Part shown: positions 7,014 through 26,627 of the stretch, piece by piece
Layout: every line of letters starts with the position of its first letter
Position numbering within the stretch: the stretch's first letter is position 1
The notes under the pieces: model-generated
What the model was told of the DNA's origin: nothing
What the model saw: only the letters and a program-made list of their open reading frames with translations
Database searches by the model: none
Program-made: the position numbers and the translations under genes
From: a virus
Reading direction: 5' to 3' (one strand)
Virus record (IMG/VR): IMGVR_UViG_3300049830_000158
Coordinates: 1 to 30,764 of that record
Length of the DNA: 30,764 nt

Positions 7014-7048
7014 ATATTACGATTTTGAGATAAATAGCTGATATTATT
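7014..7048 (-). promoter_or_regulatory. Late-type bipartite promoter, copy D
   Basis: On the minus strand AATAATATCAGCTATTTA (7048-7031) is followed at the standard distance by TAATAT at 7019-7014. ATCAGC (7042-7037) and TAATAT are 17 bases apart, exactly as in three other copies. The box starts within the TAA stop codon of the 97-residue gene. The predicted start of transcription is near 7006, about 60 bases before the chaperone gene. A 5-bp hairpin (ATGGC/GCCAT, 7006-6993) would lie at the 5' end of the message. Confidence 0.75.
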
Positions 7049-7340
7049 AGAAATTATAGGAATAAATTACGCCTAATTCGGTAGGCTTAAATCTAAAGAA
7101 TACGGTCTGGTTATTGAAAAATGGGATAGTTGCTTCTCTTTTAGCTAACAAAGCTACGAACGGGACCAATCCATTCATCATTCTAGGACCTAAAACCGAC
7201 TCAGCCCTTTTCTTGGCCATATCAGACAACTCGTTAGCTCTGATCTCAATAGCTGGATTGTAATAAAAGTATTGATTGGACAGCTCATTACAGTGTCCAA
7301 CATTTGTACATAGTCCTAATAGGATAGCCTCTAAAAGCAT
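7047..7340 (-). CDS. Small protein of unknown function
   Basis: 97 residues. The first 12 residues are hydrophobic (MLLEAILLGLC) and two Cys lie at 11 and 17, but there are no basic residues before the hydrophobic stretch and no proper lipobox, so export is doubtful. The rest contains a helical region and ends in an aromatic segment (FFNNQTVFFRFKPTELGVIY). It follows the two-helix membrane protein by 35 bases and lacks a clear ribosome binding site. Its stop codon forms part of the next promoter. I do not recognise it. A lysis role can be guessed only from its neighbour. Confidence 0.55.
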   Translation of the reverse strand: MLLEAILLGLCTNVGHCNELSNQYFYYNPAIEIRANELSDMAKKRAESVLGPRMMNGLVPFVALLAKREATIPFFNNQTVFFRFKPTELGVIYSYNF

Positions 7341-7375
7341 GGTTTATCGTAACACAGAATAGTAACAAATAGTAG

Positions 7376-7657
7376 CTATTTCTCTTCTTCTGGTTCAGTT
7401 TCTTCTACTTTTGGAGCCGCTACTTGTCCATCTACTTCGATCTTCTTCTGCAATACCTTAGATCCTAAGCCTGCGCCAAGGAATACCGAGCAGATAACCG
7501 ATGCAGAATCAAGGCTAGTGCCTTTATAAAGACATACGCCTGCTATCGTACACGCCATTAAAACGCATATAAGGCATAAAAAACGAGTCATGGATGGCAT
7601 AGTTTGACCTTGTTGCTCAGCTAATAAGGCTGTAAACCATTTTCTAATATTTTTCAT
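7376..7657 (-). CDS. Small membrane protein with two transmembrane helices, holin-like
   Basis: 93 residues. A short amphipathic N-terminus is followed by two hydrophobic segments at about residues 25-45 (FLCLICVLMACTIAGVCLY) and 51-68, then a charged tail ending in a run of Glu and Lys (about 75-93). Size, two helices and charged C-terminus match many phage holins, which open the inner membrane at lysis. AAGAGG sits four bases before the ATG. It is transcribed away from the plus-strand gene at 7741. The nearest candidate lysis enzyme is the hydrolase at 8126-8647. No motif is specific to holins, so an unrelated phage membrane protein remains possible. Confidence 0.5.
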   Translation of the reverse strand: MKNIRKWFTALLAEQQGQTMPSMTRFLCLICVLMACTIAGVCLYKGTSLDSASVICSVFLGAGLGSKVLQKKIEVDGQVAAPKVEETEPEEEK

Positions 7658-7665
7658 AAAACCTC

Positions 7666-7694: not shown

Positions 7695-7740
7695 AGATAT
7701 AACAAGATTAAGATAATGACTTAAATAAAGGAGATCATTA

Positions 7741-8139
7741 GTGAAACTAAGTAAAATCATGAGCCCAGAATTCCAGAGTTCTCTTCGAGAGCTTAACAGT
7801 CAAAAGCTGCCTATTAGAACCGCCCTTATGCTTTCAGCTATCACTGATAAACTAGAGGCAGAGATTAAACGATTTGAAGAGGCTAAGCTTAAGTCAATTC
7901 GTGACGCAGGAGTTAAAGACGATAAAGGCGAACTGGTCCCCGACGAAGCTGGCAATATTCAACTATCTCCAGAAGAAAAAGTACGGGTAGAGGCTGAATT
8001 GGCTGATGCGTTAAGTCTTGAGATTGATATGCCAATGATCAAGATGTCAGAATTAGGTGCGTCTAGCGCTTTAGTTAGTGTTGCGGACTTATTCCAACTC
8101 AAAGGCAACGTCTTATTGGATGACGTTACAGCTCAATAA
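7741..8139 (+). CDS. Small helical protein, unknown (possibly DUF1617-like)
   Basis: 132 residues from a GTG preceded by AAAGGAG. It is helical and charged in the first half (KLEAEIKRFEEAKLKSIRD), then has a predicted hairpin with KDDKGELVPDEAGNIQLS and a final beta/helical part. The layout (long helix, acidic 'DEDGN' turn, then 'DMPMIKMSEL') recalls the DUF1617 family of small phage proteins of unknown function; this is from memory and not tested. It is the only plus-strand gene within the late region, has its own strong promoter, and its 3' end overlaps the opposing hydrolase gene by 14 bases. Confidence 0.7.
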   Translation: MKLSKIMSPEFQSSLRELNSQKLPIRTALMLSAITDKLEAEIKRFEEAKLKSIRDAGVKDDKGELVPDEAGNIQLSPEEKVRVEAELADALSLEIDMPMIKMSELGASSALVSVADLFQLKGNVLLDDVTAQ

Positions 8140-8647
8140 CTGAACAAACTTCTGGATGAGATTTTAATAAATCTTGGACAATCTTATTTGAATCCGAGGG
8201 AGTGATATAATCAAGCTCCTTCGGTACATCTATTTTAGCTACCCTACAAACTCTCATAGAGAATTCTGAGCAGATAAATTCTTTATCTCTGTTCCTTACG
8301 TTAACTTCGAAGTGGAATGCTTTTTTAATCCCTATTAAGAGAATAGCAAGTCTATCGTATTCTTTGCCTTTGTTTTGTTGAATAAACGTAATTATATCTA
8401 CGAACTCTTCATCAGTACATTTTATTAAATACTCTTCAACTATGATATTATCTTCTTTGAATATCTCATAGCTTACTTCATTAACGTACCCATGAGAAGC
8501 CTGAGATACGACTTCCACTCCGCTTATTGAGCAAGTATGTCTTATATAGACGTGAGAATAATCTCTTTTTTCACCCTCTTGGATCATCTTACTGCCTATT
8601 TTCCATGGACTTCTAGATCTTGAATAGCCGATTATAAATGTTTTCAT
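8126..8647 (-). CDS. Permuted papain-like hydrolase (YiiX / NlpC-P60 type)
   Basis: 173 residues. His32 in the motif YSHVYI and Cys126 in FICSEF, followed by TPSDSNKIVQDL near residue 149, are the order seen in circularly permuted papain-like enzymes (YiiX/G6R group), where His precedes Cys. A Tyr-Asp pair at about 97-98 fits the strand between them. No signal peptide or membrane segment is seen. Such enzymes cut peptide or amide bonds in peptidoglycan, or lipids or protein conjugates. A lysis or cell-entry role is plausible for this phage. The ATG overlaps the stop of the previous gene by one base (TAATG), placing it at the end of the fibre unit. Confidence 0.65.
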   Translation of the reverse strand: MKTFIIGYSRSRSPWKIGSKMIQEGEKRDYSHVYIRHTCSISGVEVVSQASHGYVNEVSYEIFKEDNIIVEEYLIKCTDEEFVDIITFIQQNKGKEYDRLAILLIGIKKAFHFEVNVRNRDKEFICSEFSMRVCRVAKIDVPKELDYITPSDSNKIVQDLLKSHPEVCSVIEL

Positions 8648-9069
8648 TATACTAATACCTTGTGTAAATTGTAATTAATTGCGAAAGAAGAGGAGGCGGT
8701 GTTTATTGATGTATATACGACTCTCAGGTAAAGATTACCGTATACCTTCGCAGGATATGGCACTTCTACTGGAAAGGTAGAATCACCATTGGCAACAAGC
8801 CAACCTGACACGAATTTATTTAAGACAAATCCTGCACCATATCCCATAATGTTATCGGTATCAACGATTGCAAGATCTATTTTATCCCCAAATTTACCGC
8901 CTACAATAATAACTCTACCGCCAGTAATTAAGCAATCATCAAGAAGCTTGTAATCAATATTAGTTACCGCATTAGGAGCGCATGTCGCAGACACTCCGAT
9001 TCCATTAAAATTTAATTTACTTGCTTCGAAATCACTTACCTTTACTGGCTTATATGTCGAATTTAACAT
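8647..9069 (-). CDS. Small beta-rich structural protein, fibre-associated
   Basis: 140 residues from ATG 9069. This start is chosen over an upstream one at 9111 because GAGGTG lies five bases before it and the longer version would overlap the fibre gene by 41 bases. The stop codon of the fibre is one base upstream. The protein alternates beta strands with many Gly, Val, Asn and Thr (for example GGRVIIVGGKFGDKIDL), and ends in NYNLHKVLV. The composition suits a virion surface or fibre-tip protein. The family is not recognised, and the role is inferred from its place between a giant fibre and a hydrolase. Confidence 0.65.
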   Translation of the reverse strand: MLNSTYKPVKVSDFEASKLNFNGIGVSATCAPNAVTNIDYKLLDDCLITGGRVIIVGGKFGDKIDLAIVDTDNIMGYGAGFVLNKFVSGWLVANGDSTFPVEVPYPAKVYGNLYLRVVYTSINTASSSFAINYNLHKVLV

Positions 9070-9070
9070 A

Positions 9071-12000
9071 TTACACCTCAGTCCATTCAATATATAGGTC
9101 GAACGAACCACCAGTTATTGTGGCACCATTAAGGTTGATCGCTATCACCTCAGTAGTGCCTCTCAGAGTTATAGGCTGTTGACCAGCTTCACCACCGAGC
9201 ATAAATTCAAACGGTTGAATACCATTCGTAGTCGCGGTAGTAGGAAAATCCATTTTTGCAGATCTGACAGATCCTACTGATGTACCGACAGTAGGATTAG
9301 CAGTGTATGATCTAACAACGGCAGTAGCTGCTGCATTAGTAGAATCTAGAGGAACAGCAGTTGGAGTAGTTGAAGTCCCTCCAGTATTAGCCGTAGATCT
9401 CTTAATGACTACAACAGAAGTTCTAACGCCACTGGTAGAAGTACCAGAAATAGCGATTTTAGTTATTCTCACTGTTTTAGTAGCTGAGCCAGTTATCGTG
9501 AATATATCAGTTGCTGCGGCAACGGCGGCAACACTCGTTATTACTGCGGTATATGTAGCAGTAGTCGAGGCTCCGATAGATATAGGAAGAGTTGATTGGT
9601 TTGAAGCAAAGGTGACAGGTAAGGATGCTGACATCGTGGCCTGACCCAGAGAAAGCATTGAACCATTGACTTCATTTATAGATATTGGAGAGTACCCTAA
9701 ATTAGTAACTGCTGGTAGAGTTCCATAAGCAGTATTAATATTAAGAGTAGTCGTAGCTGATGCACCTGTATTTTGAAATGTTAAATTGAAATAATTACCA
9801 TTAGCGGAGAACGCACGAGAAAAAGGGACTCCAGCAGCTATCGAGAATACCCAATCGCTTACGATCCTAGTGCCAGCAAGATCAATATATTGTTTTATAT
9901 GAAACGTACCTGGCTGATCGGAAGTTAATAATAATGAAATTGTTTGTTGGTTAAATACCGTCTCTATTAAACCAGTAAAAGTAGCTGACGCCGCTAATTG
10001 AGTGGTTGTAGAATTTACAGAGGATAAAACGAATTGGGTAGCAGTTTGGACAACATTTAAACCGTTTAATCCTGTACCAGAATTTAAAGTATCAATATTA
10101 GCGCCAGTGGAGTCTACTAATTGAGTTTTCTGATTACCATTAGTTTGATTCGCAGAGGTACTTGCACCAGTAGGAAGAGGAAGTGAAGTCGCAGAAATAG
10201 GTTGAACCGTAGCTGACGAATCAGTTCTTAATGCTCCAGCAGTTGTTAACGAAAGAGGATTACTGGTGGCAGTCGTGTAAGTCGGAGCCGCAGTAGTTGT
10301 TGCGCCTAAAGATAATTCACCAGTTAAACCTGCAGTTGCAGCTCCCTGAGCCGTCATCGTAGTATTAGTAGCAATAGTAGCTAATGAAGCGTTCCCTGTC
10401 GTCTGTAAGGCACTAGTTGATGCGCCTGTTGGTAATGGTAAAGTCGCAACACTAATAGGTACTAAATCATTAGTAGCAACGGTTACGCGTAATGTACCAG
10501 AATCTCTTACCCCAGTATTAGTAGAAATGGCATTACCATTAAATTGAGTCAAGCTCGTAACGGCAGCTAAAGTGCTTGCTGGTTTCAATAATGAATTGAC
10601 AGAAGTATCTAATGCTAAGCCGTTTGTAGTACCGATATTAGCGGTTACAGTACTTAAAGGAGTTAACGTCGTAAGTTGAGCTGCTGTCAAAACAACAGGA
10701 ACTGATGCTGCTGCTAAGGCTTGTCCAAGAGCAGGGGTTTTAGTATCCATTGACGCTAATGAAGTATTACCCGTGGTTTGCAATGCACTCGTAGCTGGAG
10801 AAATCTCTACACCAGAAGCATCTCTCAAATTAACATGTAAACCACGCTGAGCAGTAAGCCTTAGGGCTCCAGTGGTGCCAGCAGTTAATGAAGGAGCCGT
10901 ATCTTGGAATACGCCGCCAACAGGTTGCTGAACGCTGGTTCCATAAGTAAATGCGGTTTTATCAGCAATACCAGTTTCAATCTGTATAGCATCGCCTTTA
11001 ATATTTACATCTAAGGCTCCGCTTGTAGATGTAATCGCATTCCCAGATCCGTCTTGTAATTTTGCAGGGATTGCGGTTTGATCCGTAGGGAATACGACTC
11101 TTTGGGTCTGAGCAGAGGTTGTACCTGCACCAAAATCTGCTACTCCAGAAGCGTTACCGAGAATAGCAGCAACTCTTAATGCAGCCGTTGCTACGCCAAA
11201 GCCATCAACTAATTTACTATCAATACTCGCTAAAGAAGTATTACCAGTAGTTTGTAGAGCAGATGTAGCTGCTCCAGTAGGAAGAGAAACGGTTCCTGAA
11301 ATATTTGTTATATTCCAAGTACCTGATTGGGTAGAAAGAATGTTAGAATCGTTTGATATAGTAAATCTTGGGATACCTAATCCACTTGCTCCTGTACCAG
11401 TAACTACATTGTTTCCGCCAAACTGAGCCACGTTTTGACTCAAAGATACAGATGAACCAATATCTACGAGTAGTCTGCCAGAAGAATCTAATTGAAGAGC
11501 TGCTTGTTGACCATTGGTCAGAGTAGGTAAGGTGGTATTAAATACTCCACCAGTTAATAATGAATTCGTTGCACTAGTCCCACCCGTTAATGAGCCTATA
11601 ACTGAGATTTGATTTGCACTTGTAGCGGCTCCAGATGGCAAAGGTAAAGATGCGGCAGCTATATTAACAGTGCTAGTGATAGACCCTAAAGTGGTAACTG
11701 CTGCTAATGTAGAAGAGGGTTTTAATAGACTATTAACACTTGTATCTAATGCTAAGCCATTTGTAGTCCCAATATTAGCAGTAATAGTTGATAAAGGAGT
11801 TAAAGTAGTTAATTGGGATGCAGTTAGAACCACGGGAACTGAGCTAGCAGCCAACGCCTGTCCAAGTGCAGGAGTTTTAGTGTCGATACTAGCTAAACTC
11901 GTATTCCCTGTAGTTTGCAGGGCACTTGTAGATGCATTTGTGGGAAGGGCTGAGCTGATTACGTTTACAGACACTTCACCAGAAGCATTTGTTTTAATTT

Positions 12001-13525
12001 TTCTGTCCGTGGTTCCGTCATTACCATAGATTAAAATATTATCAGTCGTATGATCTAAAGATACGTTTAAAGTAATACCTGATTTAATATTTACATCTAA
12101 AGCATTACTAGTAGAGCCAATTACATTGCCAGATCCATCAACTAACTGAGTTTTTTGACTACCATTAGTTTGATTAGCTGAAGTAGATGCCCCACTAGGT
12201 AATGGCAAAACAGTAGCCGAGATAGGTTGAACCACTCCGCTACTATCAACTAAAAGTCTAGTCGCGGTTACAGTTAATCCAGATGGTATTTTAGTATTGA
12301 GAGCAGAAAGCGTCGCTTCAGTAGCAACACCTGCAATAGTTCCAAGATTTGCGGTTATTGTTCCAGAAACTACCCACGGAGAGGTTCCTTGAGTTACGGG
12401 GATAGAAGTATTTGTAATATTGACATTCCATGTTCCTGATTGAACAGAAGATACGGAATCGGTTCCAGACGTTAATGTCCAAGTTCTACCCGTAGACCAT
12501 ATCCCACTTTGAGTAACGGCTTGAGTAGCTGGGAAATTATTAACGGAAACAGTTAGAGGAGAAGTAAGTTTAGAATCAATGCTTGCTAATGAGGTATTAC
12601 CAGTGGTTTGCAAAGCGCTAGTAGATGCATTTGTTGGTAATGGAAGAGTAGTTGCTGAAATAGGCTGAGTAGTCGCAGATCCGTCAACTGATAAGACACC
12701 AGTAGACGAAACCTTAAATGCGCGTAGATTGGTTCCGTCTGATCCTCCGACCATAGTCGCTGACGCAGGAATTGGAGTTCCAGTAGTAGATACAGAAGGA
12801 TTAGTGGCGTTAACCGTACCAGTGACGGCTATTGGGCTGGTTAACTTTGAATCAATAGAACTTAAAATAGTATTGGCAACAGTTTGTAGAGTACTTGTAC
12901 TTGCATTTGTTGGTAATGGAAGAGTAGTTGCTGAGATGGGTTGAACTACTGCTGAGCCGTCTACTTTCATAGCATTGGCAGATGTAATTATGACGCCACG
13001 TTTGATGCCAGTTTTCGTACCATCGCTAGAGCCCGTAATCATTACGGAGTCTGGATTTGTGGCGTCGAAGCCATCCATATCTACGCGAAGCCCGCCTGTA
13101 ATTTCAAAGGTTGCGCCTTCGACTTGAACAGGAAGGGGGAATTCAAGATATTCGCCATATTTATCAACTAATATACTTCTCTTGGCCACAATTGGTTCAC
13201 GAGAATATGTTGCGTTTTCGATATCTTTAGGGTCGATCTGACGCATGCTTTGATAAGCAGCTCTAATGGAAGCCCCATCAGCGACAAGGAATAGACTTAG
13301 CTTAAAGTAATCATTTATGGATGTCCCGATAGGACCTAATCTGACCTGAGTTTTTGACGTGACTTCTTTTACTTCAAGATCTAGAGTAGTCTGTGTAGAA
13401 GAACTTAAAGCTACCTTCATTTTGACATACAGACCGAAGGTGTTTGCTACCGAAATGTAGCCATTATCATCACCATTAGCCGTAACTACAGCTGGACCGT
13501 ATTGTTGCCAATTCCGTTCGTTCAT
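9071..13525 (-). CDS. Giant repeat-rich tail fibre or virion surface protein
   Basis: 1484 residues. Residues 1-170 form a non-repeated N-terminal domain that could attach to the virion. From about 180 to 1170 there are about nine copies of a motif near LPLPTGASTSALQTTGN followed by SLASIDSKL or similar, mixed with VTQSGTW/VQSGTWN units. Two 79-residue blocks at about 534-612 and 913-991 are nearly identical. The last 200 residues are non-repetitive beta (ending DLYIEWTEV). Ser, Thr, Ala and Val dominate and Cys is absent, typical of extracellular beta fibres. AGGAG precedes the ATG by seven bases, and promoter A lies 30-66 bases upstream. Receptor binding is the usual role. A decoration protein is the alternative. 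Confidence 0.75.
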   Translation of the reverse strand: MNERNWQQYGPAVVTANGDDNGYISVANTFGLYVKMKVALSSSTQTTLDLEVKEVTSKTQVRLGPIGTSINDYFKLSLFLVADGASIRAAYQSMRQIDPKDIENATYSREPIVAKRSILVDKYGEYLEFPLPVQVEGATFEITGGLRVDMDGFDATNPDSVMITGSSDGTKTGIKRGVIITSANAMKVDGSAVVQPISATTLPLPTNASTSTLQTVANTILSSIDSKLTSPIAVTGTVNATNPSVSTTGTPIPASATMVGGSDGTNLRAFKVSSTGVLSVDGSATTQPISATTLPLPTNASTSALQTTGNTSLASIDSKLTSPLTVSVNNFPATQAVTQSGIWSTGRTWTLTSGTDSVSSVQSGTWNVNITNTSIPVTQGTSPWVVSGTITANLGTIAGVATEATLSALNTKIPSGLTVTATRLLVDSSGVVQPISATVLPLPSGASTSANQTNGSQKTQLVDGSGNVIGSTSNALDVNIKSGITLNVSLDHTTDNILIYGNDGTTDRKIKTNASGEVSVNVISSALPTNASTSALQTTGNTSLASIDTKTPALGQALAASSVPVVLTASQLTTLTPLSTITANIGTTNGLALDTSVNSLLKPSSTLAAVTTLGSITSTVNIAAASLPLPSGAATSANQISVIGSLTGGTSATNSLLTGGVFNTTLPTLTNGQQAALQLDSSGRLLVDIGSSVSLSQNVAQFGGNNVVTGTGASGLGIPRFTISNDSNILSTQSGTWNITNISGTVSLPTGAATSALQTTGNTSLASIDSKLVDGFGVATAALRVAAILGNASGVADFGAGTTSAQTQRVVFPTDQTAIPAKLQDGSGNAITSTSGALDVNIKGDAIQIETGIADKTAFTYGTSVQQPVGGVFQDTAPSLTAGTTGALRLTAQRGLHVNLRDASGVEISPATSALQTTGNTSLASMDTKTPALGQALAAASVPVVLTAAQLTTLTPLSTVTANIGTTNGLALDTSVNSLLKPASTLAAVTSLTQFNGNAISTNTGVRDSGTLRVTVATNDLVPISVATLPLPTGASTSALQTTGNASLATIATNTTMTAQGAATAGLTGELSLGATTTAAPTYTTATSNPLSLTTAGALRTDSSATVQPISATSLPLPTGASTSANQTNGNQKTQLVDSTGANIDTLNSGTGLNGLNVVQTATQFVLSSVNSTTTQLAASATFTGLIETVFNQQTISLLLTSDQPGTFHIKQYIDLAGTRIVSDWVFSIAAGVPFSRAFSANGNYFNLTFQNTGASATTTLNINTAYGTLPAVTNLGYSPISINEVNGSMLSLGQATMSASLPVTFASNQSTLPISIGASTTATYTAVITSVAAVAAATDIFTITGSATKTVRITKIAISGTSTSGVRTSVVVIKRSTANTGGTSTTPTAVPLDSTNAAATAVVRSYTANPTVGTSVGSVRSAKMDFPTTATTNGIQPFEFMLGGEAGQQPITLRGTTEVIAINLNGATITGGSFDLYIEWTEV
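10552..10789 (-). repeat. 79-residue coding repeat in the fibre, copy 2
   Basis: It encodes a block from ALQTTGNTSLASMDTKTPAL to LLKPASTLAAVTSL. It matches the block at 11689-11927 almost residue for residue, while the DNA differs at many third codon positions. Confidence 0.85.
11689..11927 (-). repeat. 79-residue coding repeat in the fibre, copy 1
   Basis: It encodes a block from ALQTTGNTSLASIDTKTPAL to LLKPSSTLAAVTTL, with only a few conservative changes (Ile/Met, Ser/Ala, Ile/Val) from the copy at 10552-10789. Confidence 0.85.
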
Positions 13526-13554: not shown

Positions 13555-13591
13555 ATATTAAGTTTTTGACTTAAGTCGTTGATTTTACTTA
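13555..13591 (-). promoter_or_regulatory. Late-type bipartite promoter, copy A
   Basis: TAAGTAAAATCAACGACTTA at 13591-13572 on the minus strand is identical over 20 bases to copy B at 23531-23512. ATCAAC (13583-13578) is followed after 17 bases by TAATAT (13560-13555). Transcription should start near 13548, leaving a leader of about 22 bases with AGGAG ahead of the fibre ATG. A ten-base palindrome GACTTAAGTC overlaps the box at 13568-13577. Confidence 0.8.
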
Positions 13592-13828: not shown

Positions 13829-14302
13829 ATGTCTAAGCTTTACTTATTTTTAACCATATCAATTATGTTGCATTTGGCAGCTTTTATATCACTTGACAAG
13901 ACTGAGCCGATTAAACAAGATTCTATTGAAATTACGGTTGAAAGTAAGGGCGACTCTGATACTAATCAAATAACGTCCGATATTATCCCTAAAGAAGAAG
14001 ATGGGAATAGTGAAGAGATTCCTTCAGATAAAGGCTATTACGGTATTGGAATTACGAGCCGTGATCATTTCGTTGATGGGCGATTCGTAGTCGAGATTTT
14101 AATGGTTAGCTTTGGATATCCAGCTGATTTGGCTGGATTACAGTCTGGTGATATCATTATCGAAGTTAACGGGATGCCTATTACTACTGGTCAAGAGATT
14201 AAAGGCGAGGGTAAAACCTCTTTAACCTTGAAGGTTAAGAAAAGAAATGGTATGATTACATTCATGCGATTAACTCGTGATTTTATCAGGACGGAAAACT
14301 AA
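13829..14302 (+). CDS. Membrane-anchored PDZ-domain protein
   Basis: 157 residues. A single hydrophobic segment at about 4-22 (LYLFLTISIMLHLAAFI) is followed by an acidic, Ser-rich linker (about 25-68) and a PDZ-like domain at about 70-150. The domain contains YGIGI, the carboxylate-loop-like SFGYPADLAGLQSGDIIIEV and a following NG, which is the typical 'A.AGL..GD.I..vNG' pattern. PDZ domains bind protein C-termini or internal turns. The topology suggests that the domain faces the periplasm or outer surface. There is no protease domain on this protein, but a membrane-anchored trypsin-like protease is encoded in the same block at 18896. The stop overlaps the next ATG by one base (TAATG). Confidence 0.8.
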   Translation: MSKLYLFLTISIMLHLAAFISLDKTEPIKQDSIEITVESKGDSDTNQITSDIIPKEEDGNSEEIPSDKGYYGIGITSRDHFVDGRFVVEILMVSFGYPADLAGLQSGDIIIEVNGMPITTGQEIKGEGKTSLTLKVKKRNGMITFMRLTRDFIRTEN

Positions 14303-14898
14303 TGGATGCTTTTGATATCAAAGTCAATGAAATTGAATTCAAGTATATGGCTGACGATGTTAGTCTTGAGAAGTTCAATGAAATGGCTGAGAGTTTAAAT
14401 CCAATAGAATACAAAGAAGTTAGTTCTTGGGATACTTATTTCAGTGGCGACGGATTGCCATTTGAATTTATCAGGTATCGACAAGGCAATACTCCTGAGT
14501 TAACGATTAAGATTAAGAAAAAAGACACGAACAATAATAGCCGAATTGAGTATGATGTTCCTTTGAGCGGGAATACGCCTAAGAAATTACTTAGCTTACT
14601 AGTTAAGGGATTTTGTAGCGCGTTTGGATTTACCGAGAATTTTAGCGTACATAAGTACTGCAGTATTTATTTTTATGAAAAAGTGGATATGGTATTCTAT
14701 ATATGCTACAATAAGTCGATGAGAGAAATCGGTCGTTTTATCGAGATCGAGTACAGAAAAGATGTACCATGCAGCAGCGAGGAAGAAGCAATGAACGTAG
14801 TTAAAGAATTTGAACAACATCTACTTAAATTTGATATATCAGCAGCCAATCGTACTAAGCGTTCCTTATGGGAACGATATCGCAATAGCAATAAATAA
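14302..14898 (+). CDS. CYTH-like triphosphate tunnel metalloenzyme
   Basis: 198 residues. The N-terminal motif Glu10-Ile-Glu12-Phe-Lys14 is the ExExK signature of the CYTH superfamily. Later strands carry the expected pairs of basic and acidic residues: FIRYRQG near 58, TIKIKKK near 69, RIEYDV near 83, and GRFIEIEYRK near 143. The C-terminal helix region ends in RSLWERYRNSNK. CYTH proteins use a beta tunnel to bind a triphosphate and metal ions, and include class IV adenylate cyclases, thiamine triphosphatases, inorganic triphosphatases and RNA 5' triphosphatases. Which substrate this one uses cannot be told. The gene sits between the PDZ gene and the ribonucleotide reductase genes. Confidence 0.75.
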   Translation: MDAFDIKVNEIEFKYMADDVSLEKFNEMAESLNPIEYKEVSSWDTYFSGDGLPFEFIRYRQGNTPELTIKIKKKDTNNNSRIEYDVPLSGNTPKKLLSLLVKGFCSAFGFTENFSVHKYCSIYFYEKVDMVFYICYNKSMREIGRFIEIEYRKDVPCSSEEEAMNVVKEFEQHLLKFDISAANRTKRSLWERYRNSNK

Positions 14899-14922
14899 TA
14901 CATTTTAATACAGAGGAGATCT

Positions 14923-17597: not shown

Positions 17598-17615
17598 TAA
17601 GACTATAGCTAATAA

Positions 17616-17644: not shown

Positions 17645-17652
17645 CTATATAA

Positions 17653-18187: not shown

Positions 18188-18195
18188 GAGATTAG

Positions 18196-18903: not shown

Positions 18904-19738
18904 GTTGGGTAAAATGGTTAGTAAATTATTGGGAGATAATGTACTTCGAGTCCTTCTCGTTGTCGTATTAGGCTTAGCTGCTTATATGATGGGCTCGGAT
19001 GTATTCGGTCGAAAGTATATGAGTTCATATGAAATGGTAAAAGATTTACCGCCTTATTCGTTGTCTGAGAATAACAAACAAAGCGAGGATCAAACACTTC
19101 CAGCAGTGATTCGACTCCATACTGGTAAGCCGACTGAAATGGAAAAGCTTAAGTCCATGGTTGGTTTAGGCAGCGTACAAGAAGAAGGTCAGTTTTTTTG
19201 TTCCGCATTCGTAGTATCGGATAAATACGCCATCACTGCAGGTCACTGTTTAGAGGGTGAAGACGGCATTAATAAAAAAGATATCGAGATTTTCATTTCT
19301 TCTCAAAGCGAAGGTATGGTTACTCCTACGGCTAGAGATACGTCTGTAACGGCTAAAGCCGTAGGTATAAATCGTCTAGGCGATACTGGATTACTAATTG
19401 GTGATTTTTCAAAGTTTAGAAAAGTTAAGTTTACGCCATTCGCTAAAGACTTACTTGATATTATTCGAATCGCAATGATGAATAATGGTCAGTTAATTTC
19501 CGTAGGATTTCCTTACGGTGCAGCTCCATTCGTTACTCCAGTTCAATTCGTAGGCGTTCATGAGTTTCAATTATATGGTCGTGCCTTCTTGTACCCTGGT
19601 CAATCTGGTGGCCCATTGATTGAGCCTAATACTGGATACGCTATTGGTATCAATAGTTCAGTAGATGGCAGCGGCGGTTGTAATTTCTCTAGTTTAATCG
19701 GTTTTCTTGATTCTTTAAAAGTTGAAGTCGTAGAATAA
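18896..19738 (+). CDS. Membrane-anchored trypsin-like serine protease
   Basis: 280 residues. A basic N-terminus and a hydrophobic helix at about 16-32 (LRVLLVVVLGLAAYMMG) anchor it in the membrane with the protease outside. The chymotrypsin-fold triad is complete: His117 (ITAGHC), Asp163 (GDTGLLIG) and Ser237 (PGQSGGPL). Cys102 and Cys118 match the disulfide that holds the catalytic His loop in this family, again pointing to an oxidising compartment. No PDZ domain follows, unlike DegS/HtrA; a separate anchored PDZ protein lies at 13829. AGAAGAGG precedes the ATG, which overlaps the kinase gene. Targets are unknown; envelope proteins or other phage proteins are possible. Confidence 0.9.
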   Translation: MGKLGKMVSKLLGDNVLRVLLVVVLGLAAYMMGSDVFGRKYMSSYEMVKDLPPYSLSENNKQSEDQTLPAVIRLHTGKPTEMEKLKSMVGLGSVQEEGQFFCSAFVVSDKYAITAGHCLEGEDGINKKDIEIFISSQSEGMVTPTARDTSVTAKAVGINRLGDTGLLIGDFSKFRKVKFTPFAKDLLDIIRIAMMNNGQLISVGFPYGAAPFVTPVQFVGVHEFQLYGRAFLYPGQSGGPLIEPNTGYAIGINSSVDGSGGCNFSSLIGFLDSLKVEVVE

Positions 19739-19742
19739 TTAC

Positions 19743-19760
19743 AATCTCATCGATGAGATT
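19743..19760. repeat. Perfect 18-base palindrome after the protease gene
   Basis: AATCTCATCGATGAGATT begins five bases after the protease stop and is followed by ATTTT. As RNA it would be a 7-bp stem with a four-base loop; as DNA it could be a dimeric protein site. It is too AT-rich, with too short a U-run, to be a strong terminator. Confidence 0.7.
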
Positions 19761-19767
19761 ATTTTGG

Positions 19768-19824
19768 GGGCATAAGCCTAAAGGTGTGAAAGCCTTCTGA
19801 GGAGTGGAAACACTCCTCTTTTTT
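19768..19824 (+). terminator. Structured RNA region ending in a strong rho-independent terminator
   Basis: The stem GAGGAGTG/CACTCCTC (19799-19806 with 19811-19818) closes a GAAA tetraloop and is followed by six T (19819-19824). Two smaller hairpins precede it: GGC-ATAA-GCC (19769-19778) and AAGG/CCTT (19781-19796). The terminator ends only 11 bases before the next ATG, so the gene at 19836 must be reached by read-through or regulated attenuation. Confidence 0.85.
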
Positions 19825-19835
19825 AGGGAGATATC

Positions 19836-20111
19836 ATGAAACTTGGTAGAGAAGAAATATTAATAACAGAAAAATGGTTCCAAAATTCGTTTAATGGAAT
19901 TTTTAAAAAAGATGATAAAAAATTAGCCTATGCTAGAGTCGAACGTACTGAAAAAGGACTTAGTTTTACTATGTTAAGACTTATGATCGGAATGAGATTA
20001 GAAGATTTAACGGGAAGTAAATTACATTTATACCATAGAAGAGACAATGATTTAATAGAAGTGGTAGATATTACTCATCCGTTATATGCAAATATTACGA
20101 TGATTTTATAA
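19836..20111 (+). CDS. Small protein of unknown function behind a terminator
   Basis: 91 residues, basic, mixed alpha/beta, without membrane segments or Cys (for example REEILITEKWFQNSFNGIF and SKLHLYHRRDNDLIEVVDI). AGGGAGA precedes the ATG by five bases and directly abuts the terminator T-run. No promoter is visible between terminator and gene. It ends right at the opposing tail-tube terminator. The family is not recognised. The position suggests expression by read-through only. Confidence 0.65.
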   Translation: MKLGREEILITEKWFQNSFNGIFKKDDKKLAYARVERTEKGLSFTMLRLMIGMRLEDLTGSKLHLYHRRDNDLIEVVDITHPLYANITMIL

Positions 20112-20161: not shown

Positions 20162-20626
20162 TTACGTACCAGAAGTGATAGTAGAAGCTCCAGCGCCTTC
20201 GTCGTTAACGCCTGATTCATCAGAAGCTAAGCGACCCATGAATTGAACTGAGAACGTGCTAAGCGACCGACTTTGTTGCCCGGAACTCCACGACACAGGC
20301 CTAACTCCAATGACTGACAGTACGGATTTATTTGACTGTCTATCAAATAACTCAATAGATATTTCATTGTGACCCATCAATTCCTGAAGTTTAGGCATTG
20401 AAGCCGCAACATATGCGCCGTTATCAATTACTCTAAATCCAGTAGCACTTACTGAAACCACGTCTTGTCCGACATAAGTCAGTTCTGCCGCTGAGTAACG
20501 ACCAAGGATAAATGCAGGCTGTACGTCGTAGTTTACGCCATAAGAAACGTCACTAAAAACTCCAACTTTTTTACCATTTACAATCAGCTGTGCTCTCGCA
20601 CCGTGAAATATTTTTTGATCAGCCAT
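20162..20626 (-). CDS. Tail tube protein
   Basis: 154 residues. The phrases FHGARAQLIVNGKKVGVFSD and YDVQPAFILGRYSAAELTY, followed by VSATGFRVID, belong to the tube proteins found next to sheath genes in many myoviruses with this type of tail. The last 20 residues are a Gly/Ser/Glu-rich tail (DESGVNDEGAGAS). It stacks in hexameric rings to form the inner tube through which DNA passes. AAGGAG lies five bases before the ATG. It follows the sheath gene by 17 bases, and a terminator follows, so sheath and tube form one unit from promoter B. Sheath before tube is the usual order. Confidence 0.88.
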   Translation of the reverse strand: MADQKIFHGARAQLIVNGKKVGVFSDVSYGVNYDVQPAFILGRYSAAELTYVGQDVVSVSATGFRVIDNGAYVAASMPKLQELMGHNEISIELFDRQSNKSVLSVIGVRPVSWSSGQQSRSLSTFSVQFMGRLASDESGVNDEGAGASTITSGT

Positions 20627-20643
20627 TATAACTCCTTATTTAA

Positions 20644-23454
20644 TTATGCAGCACTTGAAGACTTGATGCCTTCAATTTGTAAACTGATTGGAGCAAACTT
20701 AATAGTAGTTGCTTCAATCGCACACACTTCGATTGTTAATACAGATCCGCTAATGTCGATTGAAATAGATTTCCAACCAGCAGGGAATTGGTTGGTTCCG
20801 ACAGTCCATTTAAGACCTTTGAATTCAGCCATTTTAGCCTTGATAAAGCTCTCCACAGCACCAACAGTAACATCTGCTACGCTATCACCGATGAAAGCCT
20901 TCTTAATGCTCTCAGCTAAGCTTAACGCCATTAAATCCGCGATATAAACGGCTTGCATAGAGTTGTAGATTTCGCTATTGTCGAGGCTATACGTCATTTG
21001 ATCAGAAGCCCAGCTGAATGTTCCATTTTCGTTTTTAACGATAGGAGCTAAACCAGCTAATAATGCATCTTCGATATCAGAAGTGTTTTCATTATCAAAG
21101 TCACCAGCGGCTTGGCTAGCAGCAGAGATATTGATTACTCTCTTAGGACCAAAGATACCTTGGTAAGAAGCAGCGGCTTGCATACCAGCACCTTTAACAG
21201 CAGCCATCCAAGGCTGATATGTTTGAATATTACCAGTAGAAGCGCTTAAATCATTAACATCTTCAAACGGATGGAATACTCGGAAAGAAGCCATAGACTG
21301 AGCTGATGTCTTACATTCAGAGAATGTGCCACGTTTAGAAACCACGGCGATTCTATGACGCTTAACTTTAGCAGTAGACATAGAGAGCACATGAGCTTTA
21401 CAAGCTTGATTAACTGCATCAACCATATAAGTAGAGGCAGATTCGGTGTCACCAGTTAAGATATCCGCAGAAGCATCTTGAGATACTAATGGAACCACGA
21501 AGTTACAACGAACGGCTTGGAGCGCATCAACGGCTTTACTAAACTGTAAACCAGTGGTTGAGCCTTTTGCGCCGCCAGATAAATAAGACGGAGCCTTATC
21601 TTCTGGAAGACCTGCCGTAGCGATAGGAGAATAAGAGATAAGAACTGAACCAGCCAAACCTTTAGCAGATTTAGTTAAAGCCCATAAGTCATTTTTAACT
21701 CTTCCAGCCATATTTTGTAGATTAGAAGCGATTGAGAATGTCATCTGATCTAAGTTATATGGAGATTGCTGACCAGCGGCTACACTTGCTGCTGCGGCTT
21801 TATAGCCAGGGTTCTGATTGATCCTAGAAACTAGCTGTCCAATCGTGGCAATTTTAGATAAATCAATATCTAAATTAGAGCCTGATCCAGCTACAACATT
21901 TGTTTGCAGTTTTAAGATATCACCAACTAAGCCAATAGTAGCGCTTGCAGTTGTGCCATCATAACCCAAAGTCATCATGATATCGCCACCGACTACGAAT
22001 GACTCTTGAGTATTCGTGCCGTCTTTAGAAGTAGAGAAAGTCTTTTTAAGTTCAGAAGAAGAAACCATTAAAGTCTCAAGCCAAGAAGCCGGAGAATCAA
22101 CACCTAAGTTTTTAAATTCTGTATTGATATTTACTGCACCAGCATTATCGTAAATCTCTAAAGCCTTACCTAAACCAGCGATTTGTGGATCACTAATTGA
22201 AACATCACTTGTTGCAGAAATTGCAATAGCCGATACAGATACAGGAGAACCATTAGAAAGACGTTGAGCCTTGATAGAAGCTGAAGTAGTTGAGTTTGAA
22301 ACCGTAACGACTTGATACCAGCCAACATTCTCAGATGAGCCGCCTGCTACTACTGAACCAGAAGGGATGTACATTAAATCATTAACAGCTGGTTTACCAC
22401 CAAATACTTGACCCGCAGATAAAGAAATTGATAAAGAAGAAAGGATTGCATCTGCTTTAATGTTTTGACCGACAAGAGAGACTAATACGTTTCTATTAGT
22501 TCCGCTTTCGTTATCAATACGCATATAGCTGTAATTGATTAAATCGTTATTAGGAGTGGCAGTAATTGCAACCGCAGCAACCGCTACTGGAGCACCTGAA
22601 GTTATTTTTTTAGCCGTGATTGAGGCGTCTGAAATATTGTTAGATACTCCAGTTACTAAATACCAGCCGACATTAGCAGCTAAAGCACCTTGAATAACTG
22701 AACCAGAAGGGATACGAACAGTATCGCCAACTTGTGGAGCAGATGAGAATAACTGACCCAAGGCCAATTTAATGCTTACGTTTTGACCAGATATAAGATC
22801 TAATTCGATGTTTTGTCCAGTTAAAGAAGCGATAGCGTTACGATTAACGCCGCCGACTACGTTAATGCCAGACATAGAAGTGAGAGTAGCTGCTAAAGCA
22901 GAAGGGATTGTATTCGCAGAAATAGCCAATACTTGCTTAGCTCCGCCATTAACGCGAAAAGCCATACTAGAACCAGAAGATGAAGGAACATAAGAAAAGG
23001 CTTGAGTTGAGGCTGCTTGTTCTCGATTAGAAGAAGTGATGGCATTTATGATATCATTACCAGCAAGTCCACCACGTTTAGCTTTAGAAACGCCATGAAC
23101 AAGAGTTAATTGAGCCTTACTAGAATCATTAGTTTTGATCAGGATTGCACGATTAGGGGAACCATTGATACCTTGAGAAGCAGGTGACATAAGACCACGG
23201 AAAGCATCTACGAGACGTCCTGAACCATAACGAGCTAATACTTTATTGATATCGGTAGGTCCAAATGAGTTATCTGAGGCTTTTTTACCATTAGCTGAGT
23301 CTTGAACCCAAGAATCACCTTCATCTGCCTCGCCAACCAAAGCTATGATACCAGAAGTCGCTACACCACCAGGGTTGTTAGCAACAAAAACATCAATAGA
23401 GCTGTCGGGTTGAATTAAGACGGCCCCAGAAGGAAGGGTTATGCTATAAGCCAT
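20644..23454 (-). CDS. Tail sheath protein with an internal tandem domain
   Basis: 936 residues. The N-terminus (FVANNPGGVATSGIIALVGEADEG and NSFGPTDINKVLARYGSGRL, described as separate short motifs) and C-terminal part (residues about 690-930, with SVADVTVGAVESFIKAKMAEF) are those of contractile tail sheaths; the core beta-alpha domain at about 600-930 carries the interlocking arms. Between them lie two related blocks at about 204-300 and 320-415, both containing 'GQNI', 'PSGSV' and 'NVGWY'; sheath insertions of this kind project from the outside of the tail. It is longer than T4 gp18 (659), mainly through these blocks. AAGGAG precedes the ATG. Transcription should start near 23488 from promoter B. 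Confidence 0.9.
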   Translation of the reverse strand: MAYSITLPSGAVLIQPDSSIDVFVANNPGGVATSGIIALVGEADEGDSWVQDSANGKKASDNSFGPTDINKVLARYGSGRLVDAFRGLMSPASQGINGSPNRAILIKTNDSSKAQLTLVHGVSKAKRGGLAGNDIINAITSSNREQAASTQAFSYVPSSSGSSMAFRVNGGAKQVLAISANTIPSALAATLTSMSGINVVGGVNRNAIASLTGQNIELDLISGQNVSIKLALGQLFSSAPQVGDTVRIPSGSVIQGALAANVGWYLVTGVSNNISDASITAKKITSGAPVAVAAVAITATPNNDLINYSYMRIDNESGTNRNVLVSLVGQNIKADAILSSLSISLSAGQVFGGKPAVNDLMYIPSGSVVAGGSSENVGWYQVVTVSNSTTSASIKAQRLSNGSPVSVSAIAISATSDVSISDPQIAGLGKALEIYDNAGAVNINTEFKNLGVDSPASWLETLMVSSSELKKTFSTSKDGTNTQESFVVGGDIMMTLGYDGTTASATIGLVGDILKLQTNVVAGSGSNLDIDLSKIATIGQLVSRINQNPGYKAAAASVAAGQQSPYNLDQMTFSIASNLQNMAGRVKNDLWALTKSAKGLAGSVLISYSPIATAGLPEDKAPSYLSGGAKGSTTGLQFSKAVDALQAVRCNFVVPLVSQDASADILTGDTESASTYMVDAVNQACKAHVLSMSTAKVKRHRIAVVSKRGTFSECKTSAQSMASFRVFHPFEDVNDLSASTGNIQTYQPWMAAVKGAGMQAAASYQGIFGPKRVINISAASQAAGDFDNENTSDIEDALLAGLAPIVKNENGTFSWASDQMTYSLDNSEIYNSMQAVYIADLMALSLAESIKKAFIGDSVADVTVGAVESFIKAKMAEFKGLKWTVGTNQFPAGWKSISIDISGSVLTIEVCAIEATTIKFAPISLQIEGIKSSSAA
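22210..22497 (-). repeat. Sheath internal repeat, copy 2
   Basis: It encodes residues about 320-415, from RNVLVSLVGQNI through NVGWYQVVTVSN to VSVSAIAISAT. It parallels copy 1 element by element, with roughly half of the residues the same by eye. Confidence 0.8.
22555..22845 (-). repeat. Sheath internal repeat, copy 1
   Basis: It encodes residues about 204-300, from RNAIASLTGQNI through NVGWYLVTGVSN to VAVAAVAITAT. About 20 residues separate it from copy 2. Confidence 0.8.
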
Positions 23455-23494: not shown

Positions 23495-23531
23495 TTATTA
23501 GGTTTATACGATAAGTCGTTGATTTTACTTA
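23495..23531 (-). promoter_or_regulatory. Late-type bipartite promoter, copy B
   Basis: TAAGTAAAATCAACGACTTA (23531-23512) is identical to copy A. ATCAAC (23523-23518) and TAATAA (23500-23495) are 17 bases apart. It lies between the 84-residue gene and the tail sheath, with a predicted leader of about 34 bases. Confidence 0.8.
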
Positions 23532-23544
23532 CATTTAATAACAT

Positions 23545-23799
23545 TTATTTTTTACTTTTCTCGATAGGTATACCGAAGTGTTTTACGCCTTCAAGCCACT
23601 TAGATTGATTATCATACCAACCTAAAGCCCGTAAGTGTTCCTTAGCAGAATTCATGAGAAAGTAGTCTTGCCCTTTAATGCATGAATACCAGAACTCTTC
23701 AAAGCTAGAGTAGATAAAAATAGGCGGAGTATTCTGAACGTATTCATCAGCACACTCGTCAACTACTTCAATTTTACCCTTACCATTATTCTTTGACAT
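23545..23799 (-). CDS. Small protein of unknown function
   Basis: 84 residues. The N-terminus is polar (MSKNNGKGKIEVVDECADEY), the middle aromatic (FIYSSFEEFWYSCIKGQDYF) and the end contains a helix and LGWYDNQSKWLEG. It begins immediately after the stop codon of the Lys-rich protein (TAGATG), so translation is probably coupled. It ends the unit that starts at promoter C. No family is recognised; the particle-gene context suggests a morphogenesis or virion role. Confidence 0.65.
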   Translation of the reverse strand: MSKNNGKGKIEVVDECADEYVQNTPPIFIYSSFEEFWYSCIKGQDYFLMNSAKEHLRALGWYDNQSKWLEGVKHFGIPIEKSKK

Positions 23800-26202
23800 C
23801 TACAATTTGCCTCTTGAATCAGAAGTATCAGAATCTGAATGCATGAAATCCATTTGTCCAGTTGGATGAAGAAGATATGTATGACTTCCCCACTCTTTTA
23901 CTGGTTGGTTGTGGACTCCAGTTATTACATTTCTGCCATGATATTCATTTAAAGCCTTGGCGTCATCAATATACTGCAAAGTCTTTTGACCTCGTTCATG
24001 AAGAGGATTCGGTTTACCGTTAACCGTAGAATTAAAATGCTGATCAACGGTTACATATTTAGGAGCATCAAGTTTAATATTCTCAGGAAGAAGAGACTCT
24101 AAATGCATTTTACGCCTAGAAGCTTCTGCTTCCTTTTTTACCTTAGCCTCGGCTTCAGCTTTTTCACGATGTGGACGATTAAGTTCATCTCGATCAGCTT
24201 TAGCTTTTAAAGCGCGTTGAAGCGCGGTTAAGCCATCGGCACCTTTAGGGAATCTAGATTCTTCTTTTTTTAAGCTATTTTTGGACTTTTTTTTTAAGCC
24301 TTCCGATTTCTGAGTAGGCTCTGATTTAGGAAGATTAGGTTTAGGCATAGCTTTAAGTTCTTTAAGCTTATCTGAATGTAATTGCTTAGATCTATCCATA
24401 TATTTAGAAGCATCCTCAGATGGAGCTTTATTATGGGTGCTTCCATAAAATAACTTTCCTTCTTTAGCAGCATTAGCTGATCTTACAGCTCCACCAGCAC
24501 TAGAATTACCAGCTGATGTAGACATTGGAATACCTTCAGAAGACACAGTAGTATGGACACCTTTTTCGTGTCCAGTTGGAGGATTTTTACCATGTGAAGC
24601 TGGCATTTTTTTATGTTGACCCTCAGAAGATTTATCTAATTTAGTCGCATAGCACCTACTAAGACCTTGATGTAAGATTCTTTTCTTAGCTAAGTACTCA
24701 GGGCTTGATTTGTCGAGAAGCGTCCCTGGCATGTGAGACTTAGGATCAATCTTATTCATATCTTCACTTTTAGGAAGATTAGGCTTAGGCATTGATTTTA
24801 ATTGAGAAAGAACATTCTCATGACGAGTTTTACCCTCAGAAATATTACGCTTATCATTACTTACTGATTTGCCACCAGCTATGGAGTCTCCAGAACCTCT
24901 TACTAGATTATTATGAACTCCCATGACTGGGGATTTTACTGAATTACTAGCTCTAATATGAGCTTTTACTGCAGCGACTGCTGGATTCTTATTAGCTTCA
25001 GGAGTACCCATGCCTGCATGAGTTTCGAAACGGTTGGCTTTTTCAAGATTGCCATCTAAAGCTTTTTTTAATGATTTAGCTAACTCATTTTTCTTCATAG
25101 GCTTCTTCTCTACTTTCGGTTGCGGTCCACCACTAGGACTAGCTCCATTTGCATATCCACTAATTACGTCAGGTCCACTCATATAATGTCGGCCAGTGTT
25201 AGTTCTGCGTTCATTAATAATTACAGGAGCGCTAACGTCAGCAGGAGTTGGAGCTGCGTATTTCTTTTCAGATTTTATAGTTGAATAACTAGGCTTTGCA
25301 TTAGCCTCTTTATTACCATTAGCGTCAAAACCTAATAAATTCTGAGATATTCTCATGCCTTCTGGTTTACTTCTTTTCCACACATCGCCGACAAACTTAG
25401 CCGCAATCTCTCTATGAGGATGTTCATGAGGAACAATTGCACCACTAGATAAGAAAGAATGTAATTCTTTAGGAACTGGAACTCCAGAAATATGAGTCAC
25501 GGAAGATTGTGGAACGGCTGCGGGTTTAACTGGAGCAAGGCTTAAATTCTGCTGTTTAATGCTTTGGGGACTGATACCACTCTTAATAGATCTTAAAGGC
25601 ACAGCTGCTTTATCAAGCTTTTCCTTATATTCTTTTAATTCAGCGCCCTGCTTTTTAGCTTCTTTCATATCGTCCTTATGACTTGGAGACTTAAGTACAT
25701 TAACTAGTTCTTTATGCTCTTTTACGGCTTGCTTAGCCGTCATAGTAATAGGAGTTTTTTCGGAAGCAGCAAGTTTATTAGGTTGGTCTTCAACTTTAGG
25801 AGAACTAGGTTCCGCAATTTTAGGAGCGGATTGAACTGGCTTCATTTTAGATCCTACCCATTTCTTCATCTTATCTACAAAAGTCGGATTAGCTATTCTA
25901 GCTTCGATCTTAGCTCTACGGATTTTACCTTCGGCATGGATCTTTTTCTTATAGTCATCATAAAACATCTGATCTTCTATTGACTTATCAATAGGTTCAG
26001 ATAGCTTAGGCTTAGGGCCTTCTTTGATTTGATTCAATTTAGCTCTGTGTAAGAACTTCTGAATCTCTGGATTTTTGCTCTTCCCAGACATCATGCCATA
26101 ATCTTTACGTTCCCAACTAGATGCGCGTTCATCACGAGCTGCTTTTTTATCAGCTACGCTCTTACCTTCATCTATTTTGGCTTTGACTAGTTTTTTAGAC
26201 AT
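23800..26202 (-). CDS. Large Lys-rich, low-complexity protein, possible internal virion protein
   Basis: 800 residues from ATG 26202, which overlaps the upstream stop by one base (TAATG); an in-frame GTG at 26211 would add three residues. It is strongly basic and rich in Lys, Ser, Pro, Ala and His, largely disordered, with no Cys-rich or membrane part. Two longer repeats end in LKSMPKPNLPKSE and LKAMPKPNLPKSE (near residues 470 and 625), each preceded by 'GVH..' and 'AGG' elements. The last 150 residues look folded (VDQHFNSTVNGKPNPLHERG and HTYLLHPTGQMDFMHSDSD). I do not know the family. Basic disordered phage proteins of this size are sometimes packed with DNA; that is only a possibility here. 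Confidence 0.65.
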   Translation of the reverse strand: MSKKLVKAKIDEGKSVADKKAARDERASSWERKDYGMMSGKSKNPEIQKFLHRAKLNQIKEGPKPKLSEPIDKSIEDQMFYDDYKKKIHAEGKIRRAKIEARIANPTFVDKMKKWVGSKMKPVQSAPKIAEPSSPKVEDQPNKLAASEKTPITMTAKQAVKEHKELVNVLKSPSHKDDMKEAKKQGAELKEYKEKLDKAAVPLRSIKSGISPQSIKQQNLSLAPVKPAAVPQSSVTHISGVPVPKELHSFLSSGAIVPHEHPHREIAAKFVGDVWKRSKPEGMRISQNLLGFDANGNKEANAKPSYSTIKSEKKYAAPTPADVSAPVIINERRTNTGRHYMSGPDVISGYANGASPSGGPQPKVEKKPMKKNELAKSLKKALDGNLEKANRFETHAGMGTPEANKNPAVAAVKAHIRASNSVKSPVMGVHNNLVRGSGDSIAGGKSVSNDKRNISEGKTRHENVLSQLKSMPKPNLPKSEDMNKIDPKSHMPGTLLDKSSPEYLAKKRILHQGLSRCYATKLDKSSEGQHKKMPASHGKNPPTGHEKGVHTTVSSEGIPMSTSAGNSSAGGAVRSANAAKEGKLFYGSTHNKAPSEDASKYMDRSKQLHSDKLKELKAMPKPNLPKSEPTQKSEGLKKKSKNSLKKEESRFPKGADGLTALQRALKAKADRDELNRPHREKAEAEAKVKKEAEASRRKMHLESLLPENIKLDAPKYVTVDQHFNSTVNGKPNPLHERGQKTLQYIDDAKALNEYHGRNVITGVHNQPVKEWGSHTYLLHPTGQMDFMHSDSDTSDSRGKL

Positions 26203-26585
26203 TATTCCCACTTCTTATTTTTCTCGAAATTGACGATAGCAGAAACCACGTCTTTAATGTTATGGAAATACTGCGGAGAGCGGCTTGTTTCTTCATCTTT
26301 ATCTAAGACGCTTATTGAGTAGCATGGCTTTTTATCAGCCAGTTTCTTTAGATCAGCTACTATGTGATACTGTTTACTGTCACCTTCACGTCCTAAGATG
26401 TGTCTAAACTCAGCATTAGGGCCTTTAGTCACCCCCATATGCTTGATTGGATGGCTTTGAATTAGCTCATTTATAGCTTCGGCATCGTTAGCTTTATGGA
26501 GTCCTGATTTTTTGATTTCAGCAATAGCATGACGAAGATCTTTCAATCCAGCCAATTTACCCTTTAAAGCCTCGTATTTACTCAT
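26202..26585 (-). CDS. Small protein of unknown function, predicted leaderless
   Basis: 127 residues. The first 50 are helical and Lys-rich (KYEALKGKLAGLKDLRHAIA), followed by alpha/beta with HPIKHMGVTKGPNAEFRHIL and a C-terminal helix (NIKDVVSAIVNFEKNKKWE). Promoter C places the start of transcription at about the ATG, and no ribosome binding site lies ahead of it. An in-frame TTG at codon 11 has AAAGGG ahead of it and could be an alternative start. It is coupled to the Lys-rich gene. The family is not recognised. Confidence 0.65.
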   Translation of the reverse strand: MSKYEALKGKLAGLKDLRHAIAEIKKSGLHKANDAEAINELIQSHPIKHMGVTKGPNAEFRHILGREGDSKQYHIVADLKKLADKKPCYSISVLDKDEETSRSPQYFHNIKDVVSAIVNFEKNKKWE

Positions 26586-26592
26586 ATTTTAC

Positions 26593-26627
26593 TTATTAAG
26601 ATTTAGGGTTAAATTGTTGATATTACT
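26593..26627 (-). promoter_or_regulatory. Late-type bipartite promoter, copy C
   Basis: AGTAATATCAACAATTTA (26627-26610) begins inside the TAG stop of the upstream gene. ATCAAC (26621-26616) and TAATAA (26598-26593) are 17 bases apart. The predicted transcription start (26586-26585) meets the ATG at 26585. Confidence 0.75.

Follow-up and report, generated by a model that had tools for sequence, protein, structure and literature searches.

What directs transcription of the structural genes on the minus strand of the virus record IMGVR_UViG_3300049830_000158? A first-pass annotation of this DNA (the window, which is the entire virus record of 30,764 b) had pointed to four minus-strand copies of a two-part sequence and read them as probable phage late promoters, whose reader would be a sigma factor or an activator of the phage. 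Searching the window for ATCARC-N17-TAATAW we found exactly four exact matches, all on the minus strand and at the places reported, spanning 7042-7014, 13583-13555, 23523-23495 and 26621-26593. The gap between the two parts is exactly 17 bases in all four, and the run of 20 identical bases attributed to two of the copies was found in the sites at 13583 and 23523. A pattern extended by the TT that the sites have in common (ATCARC-N3-TT-N12-TAATAW) gave 4 matches in the window versus 0 in 100 dinucleotide shuffles. Permitting one mismatch in ATCARC-N17-TAATAW gave 8 matches versus 1.8 expected, the 4 additional ones lacking the remaining parts of the element described below. We consider it very probable that these sites are late promoters of an RNA polymerase carrying a phage sigma factor, region 2 of which would read the -10 part; the upstream box may be read by a separate factor.

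As the window is the whole record, a matrix search of a complete genome has to be made in relatives. Near-identity DNA searches with the window returned no matching record, and a sheath-based search of genome_contigs returned no relatives. A profile built from the sheaths of the window and of Myxococcus phage Mx1 recovered three large IMG/VR contigs, L006/G001 (146.7 kb), L007/G002 (135 kb) and L008/G003 (154 kb), which stand at 50-54% identity in the sheath, along with shorter contigs of greater distance; L059/G005 (116 kb) came from another profile search, which also brought in more distant fragments. G013, a contig of the metagenome that yielded G005, probably belongs to the same phage. Aligned along its whole length, the window sheath is 37% identical to the protein annotated as tail sheath in Mx1, which is the nearest named phage and the only named isolate of the group found in this analysis. 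The window is best explained as DNA of a large phage with a contractile tail, a distant relative of Mx1. Outside Mx1, gene starts were taken from a simple purpose-made caller.

The matrix was seeded with 7 sites (4 from the window and 3 from relatives), G005 being left out of its building, and a strict threshold was used; a looser one drifted toward plus-strand noise. It converged on 43 sites in the window, G001, G002 and G003, against 0-1 per genome in Markov and reversed controls. On the late and the other strand, respectively, these number 5 (minus) and 1 (plus) in the window, 12 and 1 in G001, 12 and 0 in G002 and 12 and 0 in G003, and among sites scoring at least 20 in these genomes 41/42 lie on the late (structural-gene) strand, a ratio of 41:1. 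The plus-strand match in the window, at 1442, is weak, falls within a minus-strand gene and is probably due to chance. Coding bases in G001 and G003 are divided almost evenly between the strands, and therefore the one-strandedness of the element is non-trivial. The held-out G005 yielded 11 sites with scores of 26-37, all on the + strand, where the best shuffle reached 14.4, and G013 contributed 2 further sites. Moreover, the element is equally prominent in G003 at 54% G+C.

The consensus, A.TAA..WWCA.....TTA....(A)AAA.CTTAATNTT, covers about 36 bp with rigid spacing. Taking TAATNT as the -10 hexamer, the leading A stands at about -41, WWCA near -33 and TTA at -26 to -24, followed by an A-run and then CTTAATNTT. 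Its invariant parts are TTA exactly 9 b 5′ of CTTAAT, the A-run before CTTAAT and CT immediately before TAAT, and C-14, T-13, A-10 and T-9 are near invariant. The layout had been described as two separate boxes; the conserved element is instead continuous from about -41 to -6 and has more invariant parts than those two. Counts made independently of the matrix, across all CTTAAT copies in the four genomes, agree: TTA lies exactly 9 b 5′ in 38/179 late-strand versus 6/139 early-strand copies, and CA exactly 17 b 5′ in 35/179 versus 10/139. Neighbouring spacings of TTA or CA before CTTAAT gave no comparable peak, and a peak at one distance only shows that the spacing is rigid. When the element was compared with the sigma70 type, WWCAAn and (CT)TAATNT were found in place of TTGACA and TATAAT.

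Within the window, putative late promoter 1 (AATAATATCAGC...TAATAT; 7014..7048, minus strand; matrix score 34.0) lies 5′ of the tail chaperone, tape measure, hub and spike unit. Promoter 2 (AGTAAAATCAACGACTTAAGTCAAAAACTTAATAT; 13555..13589, minus strand; score 41.1) precedes the gene for a 1484-aa fibre-like protein, and its counterpart at L007 207 has one base different across ATCAAC..TAATA. Promoter 3 (23495..23529, minus strand; score 30.8) stands 5′ of the tail sheath and tube genes, and promoter 4 (26593..26627, minus strand; score 34.6) 5′ of a 127-aa gene and the Lys-rich unit, its predicted +1 falling about 1 base 5′ of the ATG at 26585. These four, all exact matches to the initial pattern, are real, but the count was incomplete: a fifth predicted late promoter (ATGATCTCCTTTATTTAAGTCATTATCTTAATCT; 7705..7739, minus strand; score 26.1) lies 5′ of a 93-aa minus-strand open reading frame (ORF). 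This site, at 7733 (-), reads CTCCTT-N17-TAATCT, with ORF 7376-7657 beginning 50 b beyond its TAAT, and was overlooked because its upstream hexamer is poor. Back to back with it, on the plus strand at 7666, is a sigma70-like sequence (TTGACT-17-TATTAT) 5′ of ORF 7741-8139 (phrog_1401). The matrix scan placed no copy ahead of the plus-strand block at 13829..20111, and the earlier statement that no copy precedes plus-strand genes holds in the window.

Late-strand sites fall 5-100 b 5′ of a same-strand start in 34/41 cases, versus 2.2 at random (maximum of 6 in 200 random placements), so that the matrix, applied to relatives as the first-pass annotation had suggested, does hit gene starts. For G005 and G013 together, 11/13 sites are within 80 b of a start and 12/13 within 115 b. 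The same operons carry the site from genome to genome: the tail chaperone operon (window 7042, G001 1847, G002 1742, G003 131637), the sheath (window 23523, G001 107970, G002 116309, G003 150809) and the 127-aa gene (window 26621, G001 106044, G002 114055, G003 153553). The fibre site is also shared, the G001 orthologue of the 1484-aa protein at 135695 being likewise preceded by the element, and beyond the window orthologously placed sites occur at portal, prohead protease, scaffold/capsid, baseplate J and other genes. The element is thus rigid, strand-specific and orthologously placed ahead of structural operons, and there is good support for its being a promoter. At some sites (window 26585-26627; L005 and L045), among them window site 4 and Mx1 sites 13 b 5′ of ATG, transcription is predicted to begin only a few bases away from the coding sequence, and near-leaderless late mRNAs would be expected there.

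The full-element matrix found no full element in Mx1, G004, G014, G008 or G011. However, de novo motif finding 5′ of Mx1 late genes returned CAATCT, and YAATCTT occurs 32 times on the late (plus) strand of Mx1 versus 9 times on the other. Of the 32 plus-strand copies, 15 are followed at 10-60 b by a gene annotated on that strand, where 0.8 would be expected, and when the Mx1 YAATCTT sites were aligned no conserved upstream sequence appeared. The core YAATCT(T) is also present 5′ of the sheath gene in G004, L009, L060, L061, L063 and G014; in the same position L062 has CAATCC only, and none was seen in L064 and L065. Since the core stands ahead of late genes in boxless relatives too, the -10 part is old in the group and the upstream box belongs to the window's clade. 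Sigma70-type sites (TTGACA-17-TATAAT-like) are distributed in the opposite sense, with early:late strand counts of 16:1 (Mx1) and 13:4 (G003); no clear strand bias of such sites was seen in the genomes richer in A+T. The paper announcing the Mx1 genome is silent on promoters, and literature searches limited to open-licence papers gave no description of the element.

A candidate reader is encoded by the relatives. G001, G002, G003, G004 and Mx1 each have one match to sigma region 2, in a protein of about 330 aa whose gene adjoins a helicase gene and is annotated in Mx1 as a putative RNA polymerase sigma factor; a relative of it, likewise adjoining a helicase gene, is found on contig G013. These sigmas, together with the sites at late-strand gene starts of orthologous operons, bear out the earlier idea of a phage late promoter with a sigma or activator as its reader. 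A profile of the sigmas matched RpoD/SigA with an E-value of 5e-15 over profile positions 111-320, which take in regions 2 and 3 plus the opening helix of region 4, and Sigma70_r3 was above cut-off in the G001 sigma. The proteins end at LTxxExkxLxLKG, before helix 4.2, except in G001, where the frame continues into a GroES-like gene, and no region 4.2 helix-turn-helix was found in any frame downstream of the sigma genes. The phage sigma of these relatives therefore lacks helix 4.2. The next ORF is GroES-like by inspection; in G001 (L040 991-2277, +) it is in frame with the sigma as a 428-aa fusion, the two being separate ORFs in the other relatives. The relatives also share a conserved extra N-terminal domain of about 130 residues ahead of region 2. 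The RpoD residues of region 2.3-2.4 (the WW pair) appear not to be conserved in these sigmas, which would fit a -10 sequence that is not of sigma70 type. Comparison with T4 gp55 detected no relation (hhalign probability 0.6%), and the two fall in different families, PHROG 351 and PHROG 234 respectively. A structure model of the sigma (mean predicted local distance difference test score, pLDDT, of 62 over regions 2-4) had no significant fold match and supports nothing.

Partners for the truncated sigma were also sought. A search for a separate region-4 protein with Sigma70_r4 gave weak matches only and Pfam no candidate; for the upstream box, Pfam analysis of ten clade-conserved proteins and a list of clade-only proteins gave no convincing activator. 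A gene upstream of the Mx1 terminase with a segment resembling a helix-turn-helix was considered as a region 4 and rejected, as by position and shape it looks like the small terminase subunit. The sigma operon includes a 129-aa ORF (L029 7100-7489, -; G003 27100-27489) conserved in G001, G002, G003 and G005/G013; it had no family match and was not detected in Mx1, G004 or G014, and it counts among several candidate readers of the upstream box. In a more distant relative (L081 2932-5199, +; IMGVR_UViG_3300029985_000693) the sigma, at 755 aa, appears to be split by an intein adjacent to region 2.4, with putative junctions ...GRITGNLIEA/CIDENT...IVTSN/SETMVHFYP..., and an endonuclease-like ORF (3848-4795) is nested inside the sigma/intein ORF in another frame.

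We propose that host sigma70-type promoters would drive the early genes, among whose products is the phage sigma, and that this sigma, on host core RNA polymerase, would then read the late promoters. Its region 2 would contact the -10 part, CTTAATNTT in the window's clade and YAATCTT in Mx1, with transcription beginning about 7 bases after the core. Given that the sigma ends before helix 4.2, we infer that the -41 to -24 part (WWCA and TTA), present in the window's clade only, is read by something else, most likely a phage activator docked at the position of sigma region 4 or, alternatively, the sigma's own N-terminal domain. It is about an even call that a truncated sigma and a new sequence-specific activator at -41 to -24 together make up a two-protein reader atop an ancestral promoter of the -10 part only.

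The rival that comes closest is a variant which differs from this scheme only in the last step: the phage sigma alone may read the whole element via its N-terminal domain of about 130 residues or region 3, with no extra activator. The conservation of that domain in all relatives, a spacing as rigid as expected for one protein and the lack of an activator candidate speak for it, but the sigmas of Mx1 and G004 have the same N-terminal domain and yet the aligned Mx1 promoters are boxless; we regard it as possible, though the less probable course. Alternatively, the host sigma70 polymerase could be appropriated by a MotA-like activator bound at about -30, the phage sigma serving other promoters. 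In its favour, the 17 b from WWCA to TAATNT equal the sigma70 spacer, TAATNT retains T-12, A-11 and often T-7, and the TTA of the element lies near where a MotA box ends in T4. However, sigma70 does not ask for the near-invariant C-14, T-13, A-10 and T-9, the boxless -10 core stands alone ahead of Mx1 late genes, sigma70-type sites in Mx1 favour the early strand as noted above, and the genes downstream are structural. We hold this explanation to be improbable.

A reading of the element as an operator, or as a signal acting at the RNA level within a 5′ leader, in place of a promoter is more doubtful still. The element does lie between upstream genes and ribosome sites, and some operons may also be transcribed through from upstream, but no consensus RNA structure was found (RNAalifold, 0.0 kcal/mol), its most conserved part is the -10-like core, and only 10-16 b separate the core from the start codon at promoter 4 and at several Mx1 sites, a distance that suits a -10 but is too short for a leader signal. 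Similarity by chance in intergenic DNA rich in A+T could be invoked given that the -10 part alone is common, as the CTTAAT counts show; the shuffle, strand, placement, orthologue and held-out tests, however, did not reproduce the element, and its prominence in G003 speaks against chance too. Chance is ruled out for the set, although individual weak sites could be chance. Some observations weigh against the phage-sigma promoters that we favour. The late class of the genes is deduced from their content. The window contig carries no sigma gene, its sigma being deduced from those of relatives, and the searches above turned up no reader for the upstream box. Moreover, at 5/41 predicted sites no start was called within 150 b, 7/41 fall within called ORFs, some of these short, and the G005 sheath start has no copy directly ahead of it, the nearest being about 430 b upstream.

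The unit after promoter 1 (1164..6947, -) encodes a 132-aa tail chaperone-like protein, a 153-aa protein, a 713-aa tape-like protein, a 576-aa hub-like protein and a 364-aa spike/baseplate protein, ORF 1164-2258 matching phrog_3216 (baseplate assembly). The fibre unit (8126..13525, -) comprises the repetitive 1484-aa protein and two small ORFs, and the unit behind promoter 3 (20162..23454, -) the 936-aa tail sheath and a probable tube protein of 154 aa. After promoter 4 (23545..26585, -) come ORFs of 127 aa, 803 aa (Lys-rich) and 84 aa, the first and last of which have orthologues in G001-G003. The plus-strand block (13829..20111, +) carries ribonucleotide reductase and deoxynucleoside monophosphate kinase genes (phrog_86, phrog_84, phrog_139). 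Also on this early strand, at 18896-19738 (+), is an ORF resembling a trypsin-like serine protease; G003 has a trypsin-like gene (PF13365) on its early strand (L029 17295-18218).

Lastly, we set the element beside known systems. In T4 middle promoters a MotA box is combined with a sigma70 -10 and host sigma70 transcribes middle genes; there too an activator-type box replaces the -35 at a fixed distance from the -10 part, but the element described here has a -10 part unlike that of sigma70 and stands ahead of structural genes. SPO1 late promoters are served by a split sigma, gp33/gp34, and such a split would account for a bipartite promoter with a region-4-less sigma, although here a region-4 partner was not found beyond the weak Sigma70_r4 matches. 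T4 late promoters, which depend on gp55, gp33 and the clamp gp45, lack a conserved -35 sequence, and gp33 is not a DNA-reading protein (PMC2988020). They share with our case a sigma-like protein without a -35-reading domain, a -10-type core and late structural genes, but the T4 core is TATAAATA with no upstream element, whereas here CTTAATNTT is joined to an upstream box and the sigma has no detectable relation to gp55. In phiEco32 the sigma phi32_gp36, which has no region 4, works on host core polymerase at middle and late promoters with a single -10-type element, tAATGTAtA, and late genes lie on the opposite strand from early genes with their sigma70 promoters (PMC8948821). The Mx1-side relatives fit the same design, with YAATCTT alone; the core sequence is a different one, and the window's clade adds a rigid upstream box despite a sigma without helix 4.2. 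Phage 7-11 has a bipartite late promoter, GTAAtg-16-aCTA, and its sigma, SaPh711_gp47, has region 4 (PMC8948821). The likeness lies in a bipartite phage-sigma promoter ahead of late genes, at positions conserved at the operons of single-element relatives, but the bipartite form there goes with a region-4 sigma and the sigma here ends earlier. The combination of a truncated sigma with a bipartite promoter, as in the window's clade, is in none of phiEco32, 7-11 and T4 late transcription.

Taken together, these data provide a code of late transcription for large myophages of a group that has hardly been studied, and their late operons become callable from sequence. Moreover, since one sigma architecture occurs in the group both with an upstream box and without it, nature offers a clean comparison for asking how a sigma without region 4.2 gains -35-type specificity.

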